DNA from: Lentzea alba
GTDB lineage: Bacteria > Actinomycetota > Actinomycetes > Mycobacteriales > Pseudonocardiaceae
Assembly: GCF_011067745.1 (NCBI RefSeq)
Contig: NZ_JAAMPJ010000001.1
Span: 62,001 to 126,000, forward strand
Length of the DNA: 64,000 bases
Direction of reading: 5' to 3'
This document shows positions 5,363-41,815 of the stretch, piece after piece (position 1 is the first letter of the stretch; the number at the start of each line of letters is the position of its first letter). The translations under genes were made by a program, and so were the position numbers. Under the pieces are notes generated by a model that was not told where the DNA came from, made no database searches, and saw only the letters and a program-made list of their open reading frames with translations.

Positions 5363-5707
5363 ATGGGTCGAGTACTCCCTTTTGTGATCGCGGCGTTGCT
5401 CAGCGTCGTCGTGTTGTTCACCCCGGAGTCAGGTGTGCCGACCGCACCACCCGGCACGGACAAGGTGATTCACACGCTGTTGTTCGCGCTGCTCGCGTTC
5501 ACCGGCCTGTACGCGAATATTTCTCGCATTTTGCCGTTGCTCGTCGTCTACGCGGGCGTCTCGGAGGTTCTCCAGCAACTCATCACGCCACTTCACCGCA
5601 GCGGAGACGTGCTCGACGCGCTGGTGGACGTGCTGGGCATCGGCCTCGGCTGGGCTATCGCCTCGGCGATTCGCTCACGCCGACGTGGTCCTCGCACCAC
5701 GCGTTGA
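5363..5707 (+). CDS. VanZ-like membrane protein
   Basis: 114 aa beginning MGRVLPFVIAALLSVVVLFTP at the ATG at 5363. Three to four hydrophobic helices and the VanZ signature are present: DKVIHTLLFALLAFTG, then EVLQQLITPLHRSGDVLDALVDVLGIGLG, where the Glu/Gln and the D-x-x-D loop are conserved. VanZ-family proteins are linked to teicoplanin resistance in enterococci, but most actinomycete members have no known function. Reading upstream to 5165 would enter pyk antisense and is rejected. The 3' end overlaps the convergent DUF2461 gene by 53 bp. Confidence 0.8.
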   Translation: MGRVLPFVIAALLSVVVLFTPESGVPTAPPGTDKVIHTLLFALLAFTGLYANISRILPLLVVYAGVSEVLQQLITPLHRSGDVLDALVDVLGIGLGWAIASAIRSRRRGPRTTR

Positions 5708-39664: not shown

Positions 39665-39720
39665 GCGCAGAAGCCTACAAGGGGCCGCTGGGCCCACCTT
39701 GGGGACTAGGCTGCGGCGCC

Positions 39721-40101
39721 ATGATCACCGAGTTGGGCGAGGGCCAGTACCTGCTGCTGACGACCTTCCGCAAGGACGGCACCGCGGTGCCCACACCGGT
39801 CTGGGTCGCTCCCGGCCCGTCCGACGGCGTGATCTACGCCTGGAGCGCCAAGGAAACCGGCAAGGTCAAGCGGATCCGGCGCAGCGGGGACGTCGAGATC
39901 GGGCCGTGCGACCTGCGCGGCAACCCCAAGGGCGACTCGATCAAGGCACGCGCCCGGCTGCTGGACGACGACGCCAGCGACGACGTCCGCGCCCGCATCG
40001 TGAAGAAGTACGGCTTCATGGGGTGGCTGACGATGACCGGCAGCAAGCTGCGCCGAGGGCGGACGGGCACGGTCGGCATCGAGATCACGCTGCCGAGCTG
40101 A
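39721..40101 (+). CDS. PPOX-class F420-dependent oxidoreductase-like protein
   Basis: 126 aa split-barrel flavin/F420-binding fold: [64 protein letters not shown]. Members of this short group bind F420 or FMN and reduce varied substrates; the physiological substrate is not predictable. Monocistronic; its stop is followed at once by the repeat array at 40106. Confidence 0.82.
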
Positions 40102-40105
40102 ACTC

Positions 40106-40414
40106 TCAACGTTGACGAGCGCAGTCAACATTGACGAGTGCAGTCAACGTTGATTCGGCCGATCAATGTTGACTGCGCCGATGCACATTGAGGCCGATCA
40201 ACATTGACGCGATGTTGACACATTGACGCGGACATTGACTCAACATTGATCGAGTGGCCATGACAACGTTGTCACCATCCATGTTGATCAAGCGCGTCAA
40301 TGTTGATTGCGAGCGTCAATGTTGAGTCAACGTGGACTGGACGCCTCAATGTTGAGTCGACGTTGAGCGTCAACCCGAGGTTGACCGAGCGCTTGGCGTC
40401 AACCTAGAGTTGAC
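40106..40414. repeat. Array of TCAAC-RTTGA decamers, partly in 19-bp periodicity, upstream of the HTH-Clp_N gene
   Basis: Nine exact decamers: TCAACGTTGA at 40106 and 40144; TCAACATTGA at 40125, 40198 and 40240; its complement TCAATGTTGA at 40163, 40297, 40316 and 40346. Near copies are at 40182, 40263, 40278, 40327 and 40357. The first four start exactly 19 bp apart (units such as TCAACGTTGACGAGCGCAG), and 19-bp steps recur at 40278-40297-40316 and 40327-40346. The array ends in two 17-bp palindromes GTCAAC-N5-GTTGAC at 40369-40385 and 40398-40414. Within these a promoter can be read: TTGACC (40381-40386), 18 nt, TAGAGT (40405-40410), placing the RNA start at or near the ATG at 40417. Confidence 0.85.
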
Positions 40415-40416
40415 GC

Positions 40417-41118
40417 ATGATCCAGTTGACCGACCTCATCGTCACGGTCGCCCAGGAGACTGACGACGCCCTCGTGCGCCTCGCGAAGGCCGTCGAGATG
40501 AGCGGTCAGCTCAACGAGCTCGGCGACCACCTGATCGGCCACTTCGTCGACGAGGCCCGGCGCGGCGGCGCAAGCTGGGCCGAGATCGGCGAGAGCCTCG
40601 GCGTCACCAAACAGGCCGCGCAGAAGCGGTTCGTGCCCAAGGAGTCACCGGAGCTCACCAAGCCGTCGACGGAGCGCTACACCCAGCGCTCCCGCAGGGT
40701 CATCGCGCTGGCCAGGCACCACGCGCGGTTCAGCGAACGGATCGGCACCGAGCACCTGCTGCTGGGGCTGCTCGACGACTCCGGCGGGCTCGCGGCCAAG
40801 ACCATCGCGAAGCTGGAGTCCGGCGACGGCAGCACCCGCATCGCCGTGCTGCACCGGCTGGAGAAGGAACCCGCGCGGCGGCCCGAGAAGCAGCCGTACT
40901 CGACGCACTGCAAGAAGGCGCTCGAACTGGCTGTCCGCGAGGCGCTGCGGATGGGTCACATGTTCATCGGCACCGAGCACATCCTGCTCGGGGTGCTGCT
41001 CGAAGAAGGAGGGACCGCGGCCGACGTGCTGCACACCACCGGTGTCACGCACGCGGCCGCGGCCGCTCACATCGAAAAGGTCGTCAACGGACCGCAGCAA
41101 GTGCTTCCGGGAGCGTGA
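40417..41118 (+). CDS. HTH-Clp_N domain regulator (ClpC2-like)
   Basis: 233 aa. Residues about 50-72 form a helix-turn-helix ([22 protein letters not shown]), and two Clp N-terminal repeats follow: about 86-150 ([26 protein letters not shown]) and about 160-225 ([28 protein letters not shown]). No AAA+ module. The domain order matches mycobacterial ClpC2, which binds its own promoter and sequesters ligands that would poison ClpC1. The gene lies directly behind a dense array of GTTGAC-type palindromes and its ATG is 3 nt from the last, so autoregulation is likely and the mRNA may be leaderless. The 3' end overlaps priA by 35 bp. Confidence 0.85.
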
Positions 41119-41815
41119 AGGCACCGGCGTACAAGGCCTTGCCGATGATGGAGCCCTCCACGCCGTCGCGCGACAGCTTCGACAGCGCGACCAGGTCGTC
41201 CACAGTGGACACGCCGCCGGACGCGATGACCGGGGCGTCGGTGCGGGCGCAGACCTCGCTGAGCAGGTCCAGGTTCGGGCCCGTCAGCGTGCCGTCCTTC
41301 GACACGTCCGTCACGACGTAACGCGCGCAGCCGTCGCGGTCGAGCCGGTCGAGGACCTCCCAGAGGTCGCCGCCGTCCGACGTCCAGCCGCGGCCCTTGA
41401 CCCGGTGGCCCTGCTCGGTGATGCGGACGTCCAGGCCCACCGCGATCTTCTCGCCGTACGCCGCGATCGCCTTCGCGCACCACTCCGGGTCTTCCAGCGC
41501 CGCGGTGCCCAGGTTGACCCGCGCACAGCCGGTGGCCAGCGCGGCCTCCAGCGACGCGTCGTCGCGGATGCCGCCGGACAGCTCCACCTTCACGTCGAGC
41601 TCGCCGACCACGCGGGCGATCAGCTCGCGGTTCGAGCCACGCCCGAACGCCGCGTCGAGGTCGACGAGATGGATCCACTCCGCTCCGTCGCGCTGCCACT
41701 GCAGAGCCGCGTCGAGCGGCTCGCCGTAGTTCGTCTCGGTACCGGCTTCGCCCTGCACGAGGCGAACGGCACGACCGTCGGCCACGTCAACAGCGGGGAG
41801 GAGTGTGAACGTCAC
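41084..41815 (-). CDS. priA: Bifunctional HisA/TrpF isomerase PriA
   Basis: 243 aa. Isomerises ProFAR (histidine pathway) and phosphoribosyl anthranilate (tryptophan pathway), which explains the lack of a separate trpF. Barrel with catalytic Asp in [19 protein letters not shown] and Asp in [16 protein letters not shown]; the Arg of GSNREL and the loop GRGWTSDGG are PriA features. Its ATG overlaps the upstream secreted gene by 4 bp. Confidence 0.95.

Follow-up and report, generated by a model that had tools for sequence, protein, structure and literature searches.

The clpC2-like gene of Lentzea alba is preceded by a dense array of short palindromes, and the question that this locus raises is which protein reads the array: ClpC2 itself, whose candidate operators adjoin it, or another regulator. 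We analyzed the array within a 64,000-nucleotide stretch of the L. alba genome (contig NZ_JAAMPJ010000001.1, positions 62,001 to 126,000; hereafter the window) and compared it across 24 genomes of the window's genus (referred to below as Lentzea; one of them is recorded as Nocardia sp.) and with loci from outside the genus. The features of the locus are the following.

39721..40101, plus strand: PPOX-class F420-dependent oxidoreductase gene, 126 aa (from the ORF list; NCBIfam TIGR03666, 135.9 bits with a cutoff of 84.9)
40102..40368, no strand: decamer array (derived), 267 bp, with nine exact TCAAYRTTGA and 12 TCVAYRTBGA sites
40106..40172, no strand: four exact decamers at 19-bp steps (starts 40106, 40125, 40144, and 40163)
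40261..40274, no strand: core palindrome TGACAACGTTGTCA, inside the array and absent from the original prediction
40316..40336, no strand: decamer pair 11 bp apart, TCAATGTTGA-G-TCAACGTGGA
40369..40385, no strand: putative ClpC2 operator 1, GTCAACCCGAGGTTGAC, in the form of the published operator; overlaps the -35-like TTGACC (40381-40386)
40398..40414, no strand: putative ClpC2 operator 2, GTCAACCTAGAGTTGAC, in the form of the published operator; overlaps the -10-like TAGAGT (40405-40410)
40417..41118, plus strand: clpC2-like gene, 233 aa, with an N-terminal HTH/dimer domain, two Clp_N stretches, and no AAA domain

The array begins directly after the PPOX stop codon, which ends at 40101 and leaves 4 bp before the first decamer, and has a GC content of 51%, compared to 69% for the window. 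The nine exact decamers and near copies noted originally were confirmed: beyond the four stepped decamers, exact TCAAYRTTGA sites start at 40198, 40240, 40297, 40316, and 40346, and three further sites fitting TCVAYRTBGA start at 40278, 40327, and 40357. When the 267-bp array was dinucleotide-shuffled 2000 times, the exact motif occurred 0.012 times on average and once at most. A scan of the window with at most one mismatch gave 25 matches on the two strands together, whereas shuffles averaged 2.65 and none of 100 reached 25. The exact 19-bp stepping of four decamers, also claimed before, holds as well; TRF reports a period of 19 with 2.5 copies at 40106-40153, and further 19-bp steps link 40278-40297-40316 and 40327-40346. 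The pair at 40316..40336 has similar pairs at the aligned place in an alignment of 12 arrays, the exception being L054, which lacks that side of the array. A plain tandem repeat was rejected as a description of the array, for which TRF gives short overlapping arrays only (periods 19, 16, 35, 12, and 30), and so was an RNA element, with no Rfam match in 39700-41200 and the array lying upstream of the predicted leaderless start.

The two 17-bp palindromes were likewise found where they had been placed, over TTGACC and TAGAGT. Both have the form GTCAAC-N5-GTTGAC and are set 29 bp apart, and the second ends 2 nt before the clpC2 ATG, for which a leaderless start is predicted. In the available text of the published work, the ClpC2 operator is CGTCAAC-n5-GTTGACG, located 1-2 nt upstream of the ORF of a leaderless transcript and often doubled to cover the -35 and -10 elements (PMC10030653). 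The 17-mer has two matches in the window genome, both at clpC2; it occurs twice at clpC2 in all 24 Lentzea genomes and upstream of clpC2 in all 23 loci read outside the genus, which were drawn from a search returning 30 loci in all. Eight other Lentzea genomes contain 1 to 4 extra copies beyond clpC2, compared with 0 to 2 matches per Lentzea genome for a control with the pattern read backwards. The two 17-mers match the published operator, and we take them as a conserved autorepression layer, putative in Lentzea.

The original assignment of the downstream gene as ClpC2-like, with an HTH and a Clp_N part, is supported by a Pfam Clp_N match in two stretches (8.3e-20) and by matches to PDB entries 8ada over residues 2-63 (1.6e-13) and 8ad9 over residues 86-218 (1.4e-18), with ClpC1 entries outscoring 8ad9 in the Clp_N part. 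The product has the ClpC2 architecture, namely an HTH/dimer domain followed by a ClpC1-like double Clp_N domain without the AAA module, and its closest named ClpC2 is that of Lentzea kentuckyensis (99% identity). Both this architecture and the 17-mer form are shared with the mycobacterial ClpC2 autorepression circuit as far as it is described in the available text (PMC10030653), from which the window locus differs by its upstream array of 12 decamers with half-sites at zero spacing and by two residues of the protein. By alignment to ClpC1, the cyclomarin A-binding Phe pair is absent from the window ClpC2: T85 aligns with the cyclomarin-binding F2 of ClpC1 (F96 of M. tuberculosis ClpC2), and Y161 with the partner of F172, the latter equivalence coming from a manual reading of the alignment. 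Among the 23 rows of the genus, the first position is T, M, or once F, and the second is Y except for F in two; among 18 rows of other genera, 16 have F at the first position (exceptions L018 and L026). The ligand sensed by Lentzea ClpC2 may therefore differ from that of the published ClpC2; the substitution is relevant to the ligand rather than to the fold or the operator.

The original prediction regarded the decamers, too, as ClpC2 sites. ClpC2 would then bind them through the GTCAAC half-site, and the array would either extend the autoregulatory operator or act as a sink for ClpC2. The 17-mer and many decamers share this half-site, the array directly adjoins the two ClpC2 operators, and M. 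smegmatis ClpC2 is able to occupy two sites simultaneously, according to the accessible part of the report (PMC10030653). However, 5 bp separate the half-sites of the 17-mer, those of the decamer abut (0 bp), and the exact decamer was found in none of the 23 clpC2 upstream regions read outside Lentzea, whereas the 17-mer was found in all 23 (looser forms of the decamer there: TCAANNTTGA, 1; TCVAYRTBGA, 2). Moreover, the 17-mer is missing from other loci of the window genome at which decamer pairs and a second array occur. An array unconnected with clpC2 had been named at the outset as evidence against ClpC2 binding, and these pairs and the second array supply it in part. The decamer is a different motif from the ClpC2 17-mer and stands at different places in the genome, mainly at the HTH-citrate synthase promoter described below. 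The assignment to ClpC2 is thus kept for the 17-mers, which match the published operator, and is probably wrong for the decamers; as an explanation of the array, we consider ClpC2 binding unlikely.

In the whole 10.2-Mb window genome, we found 23 exact decamers, of which 9 belong to the array, compared with 2 matches for the backward pattern. The 14 decamers outside the array form four pairs and six singles. One pair precedes a gene for a citrate synthase fused to an HTH domain (HTH-citrate synthase), with the predicted ATG inside the second decamer, and another spans the start of an NmrA-like gene; both occupy core-promoter positions. The third pair belongs to the second array, between inositol-monophosphatase and LytR_C genes, and the fourth lies inside a pyridine-nucleotide oxidoreductase gene (Pyr_redox_2) with no evident promoter role. 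Among the matches listed, exact decamers form at least one close pair outside the clpC2 locus in each of the 24 Lentzea genomes, the arrayless ones included. Outside Lentzea, a close pair was found in 5 of 143 genomes of the family, in all five beside the HTH-citrate synthase gene.

Several of these places were observed in other Lentzea genomes as well. The inositol-monophosphatase/LytR_C intergenic region is a second variable decamer region (L089, L097-L101; Pfam on L089), in which one species (L097) has as many as 15 degenerate sites. The Pyr_redox_2 coding sequence contains two or three decamers spaced by 19 and 15 bp (L038:2009-2052; G000 C34), near IclR and aldehyde-dehydrogenase-like genes; these are kept across Lentzea species, and their codons (TCA, TTG, ATT) look unusual for a G+C-rich genome. 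Decamer groups also occur inside large minus-strand genes (L094 of G155, L095, and L093, the last two by eye); the L094 gene encodes a modular polyketide synthase, with decamers at 5539-5588 directly after the acyltransferase domain.

The HTH-citrate synthase has Citrate_synt and HTH_17 domains with weaker MerR matches, and its gene is divergent from a second citrate synthase gene (Pfam on L105; other loci by eye). TCAAYRTTGA is a widely conserved element between the two genes, seen at L036:2020-2044 (G000 C22) and among the loci L115-L144 and L161-L189. Among the matches listed, TCAAYRTTGA is present in this promoter at 23 of 30 family loci (7/7 in Lentzea and 16/23 outside it) and at 19 of 29 other loci of the class. 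Outside Lentzea, 35 of 52 HTH-citrate synthase promoters among the matches listed contain the exact decamer, compared to 0 of 717 other 260-bp tiles, a contrast that is overstated because the 52 loci are mutually related and the background tiles mostly coding. Four more family loci outside Lentzea have TCAATCTTGA only at the HTH-citrate synthase, and TCAANNTTGA is missing, among the matches listed, at 10 of 29 loci outside the family and at 3 of 23 in the family outside Lentzea. Most of these promoters have either one exact decamer together with a second TCAA half, often after n5, or two decamers 15 bp apart. As a class-wide search query, the exact 15-bp pair was too strict and was replaced by a protein-led search: it occurs in 2 of 394 class genomes, the window genome and one from another family. 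In the latter genome, a decamer triplet precedes a MarR gene, and another protein family may therefore use the decamer. Given its frequency at these promoters, as opposed to the 717 tiles and the 23 clpC2 regions, we infer that the HTH-citrate synthase promoter has long contained the decamer.

Comparison of the regions upstream of clpC2 orthologues, as proposed with the original prediction, located the array in only part of Lentzea. It is present in 14 of 24 genomes (G000, G083, G105, G123, G150, G151, G152, G156, G157, G158, G160, G163, G165, and G166), absent from nine (G007, G051, G140, G153, G154, G155, G159, G161, and G164), and reduced to a remnant in one (G162); in G156, where clpC2 is split over two contigs, the array was judged from genome-wide motif matches, and this genome was left out of the tables. 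The array is dispensable, since nine genomes lack it and one keeps a remnant. In the arrayless G007, G051, G153, G154, G159, and G164, the PPOX gene runs into operator 1, as it does at 8 of 23 clpC2 loci outside Lentzea, where a recognisable PPOX tail was found at nine loci, the ninth ending 4 bp earlier. This pattern points to an ancestral arrayless state. In the arrayless G140, which is near the window species, the PPOX stop lies 2 bp before operator 1; the clpC2 promoter of Lentzea terrae (L006/L191) is arrayless too. A PPOX stop inside operator 1, i.e., an overlap of coding sequence and operator, was often seen where the array is absent (L007, L009, L047, L052, and L053) and also outside the genus (L012, L013, and L016-L021). 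A tree of one region forces at least four changes of array presence; seven of its forks are weakly supported, and hence the number of gains and losses is unsure. An origin of the array within Lentzea, starting from clpC2 promoters without it, is probable, with several gains or losses since.

Where the array is present, its sites are better kept than its spacers. Mean identity to the window (10 other species, reference L001, L054 left out) is 0.785 (about 0.79) in the decamer columns right of the core compared to 0.52 in the spacers, exceeding all 94 circular shifts of the mask, and 0.62 compared to 0.46 left of the core. The commonest site spacings in 12 arrays (L057, without a PPOX stop, was left out of the alignment and counts) are 19 bp (32), 11 bp (21), and 20 bp (11), and 15 bp is absent among the 20 commonest spacings of the clpC2 arrays. 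The letters between the sites drift, whereas the sites and their distances persist, which is what protein binding would lead one to expect. The decamer arms, at positions 3 and 8, vary almost independently: 53 of 111 pairs are symmetric (49.5 expected), with G-C alone in excess (9 versus 3.75 expected) and C-G in deficit (1 versus 4.4). A maintained hairpin was dropped as an explanation because the arms of the degenerate decamers hardly change together.

Alternatively, nothing might read the array at this locus, which would then be a hypermutable block of palindromic repeats that grows and contracts through slippage. Its length, which ranges from 138 to 424 bp in the 12 arrays measured, the forced gains or losses, and the weak covariation between decamer arms are all consistent with such a block, and comparable arrays, in part built from different motifs, occupy further intergenic regions in Lentzea. 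In contrast, the better conservation of decamer columns than spacers, an almost fixed core, and the same decamer at one promoter across much of the class argue for a reader, and we regard slippage without one as improbable.

The core palindrome is the best conserved block of the array, with a mean identity of 0.95 over 13 columns; of the 13 readable arrays, 11 keep its first 13 bases, L054 keeps 12, and L051 has none of it. The core TGACAACGTTGTCA resembles what we take to be a LacI-type operator. The core also recurs between glycosyltransferase and TPR/NB-ARC-type genes (L148, L154, L155, and L160; Pfam on L148), near other palindromic repeats such as GATATATCGGATAT or GTCGACATCGAC. Single decamers at genome places C4 and C6 resemble extended LacI-type operators by eye and were excluded from the regulon members. 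LacI-type sites are not known to tolerate CA and TG centres. That the array was built round the TGACAACGTTGTC core as a LacI-type operator, with a sugar-responsive LacI-family repressor as its main reader, is very doubtful: the conservation of the core, the 14-mer in related species, close to a GH92 gene start (L152) and within an alpha-galactosidase gene at its start (L156), and its recurrence with other palindrome arrays favor it, but each clpC2 array has a single core and one (L051) has none, the decamers accept CA and TG centres, several other 14-mer copies lie within regulator or other genes with no sugar link, and no LacI gene was noted at the window locus.

In our best explanation, to which we give an even chance, the array just upstream of the ClpC2 sites is a homotypic set of operators for a second DNA-binding protein, of which the HTH-citrate synthase is the probable identity. 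The fused HTH (HTH_17) is the likely reader of the decamer, and an unlinked regulator could be the reader instead. Autoregulation of the HTH-citrate synthase through the decamer is predicted as the simplest reading because the fusion with HTH_17 is encoded beside the operator, divergently from the second citrate synthase. TCAAYRTTGA is common to the promoter of this actinomycete gene pair and to the clpC2 array, which differs by having 12 sites, mainly 19-20 or 11 bp apart, before an unrelated gene. The HTH-citrate synthase and its decamers also resemble BldC-type proteins in combining a MerR-like HTH with multi-site arrays. BldC-type proteins are MerR-like, coat DNA repeats, and use short direct repeats, whereas the decamer is a palindrome.

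According to the proposed mechanism, dimers of the second regulator would occupy decamers spaced 19-20 or 11 bp, which would place them mostly on one helical face, and would cooperatively coat 140-420 bp adjoining the clpC2 core promoter. The complexes would differ from those at the HTH-citrate synthase promoter, where pairs are 15 bp apart. The result would be a metabolic input on clpC2, either by repression or by occlusion of activators and of read-through from PPOX, stacked on ClpC2 autorepression by the 17-mers, so that clpC2 expression would be tuned to carbon metabolism. Cross-binding by ClpC2 is conceivable given the common half-site GTCAAC. Silencing of the PPOX gene by the array, which had been suggested originally, is unlikely because the array lies at the 3' end of PPOX and PPOX is co-oriented with clpC2. 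On a wider and more tentative view, which we think possible though rather doubtful, the fusion of citrate synthase with a MerR-like HTH is both a central-metabolism enzyme and a transcription factor across actinomycetes, and the Lentzea array, a multiplication of its operator into 140-420 bp of docking sites, wires carbon status into a ClpC2 protease-drug decoy and into intragenic polyketide synthase sites.

In a literature search with thin coverage of subscription journals, we found no paper on the clpC2 array or on an HTH-citrate synthase operator, and the decamer strings gave no actinomycete operator by title among the matches listed; a related HTH antitoxin, RelI, was described in 2026 (PMC13284704, accessible part). 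Two layers can be distinguished in the clpC2 promoter of Lentzea: ClpC2 autorepression, which is published and conserved, and a young layer that evolves rapidly and seems to serve a different regulator. The decamer is a widespread candidate operator for an enzyme-regulator fusion and is directly testable, and the 24 related genomes, with none to 13 sites, form a natural series for operator number at one promoter.
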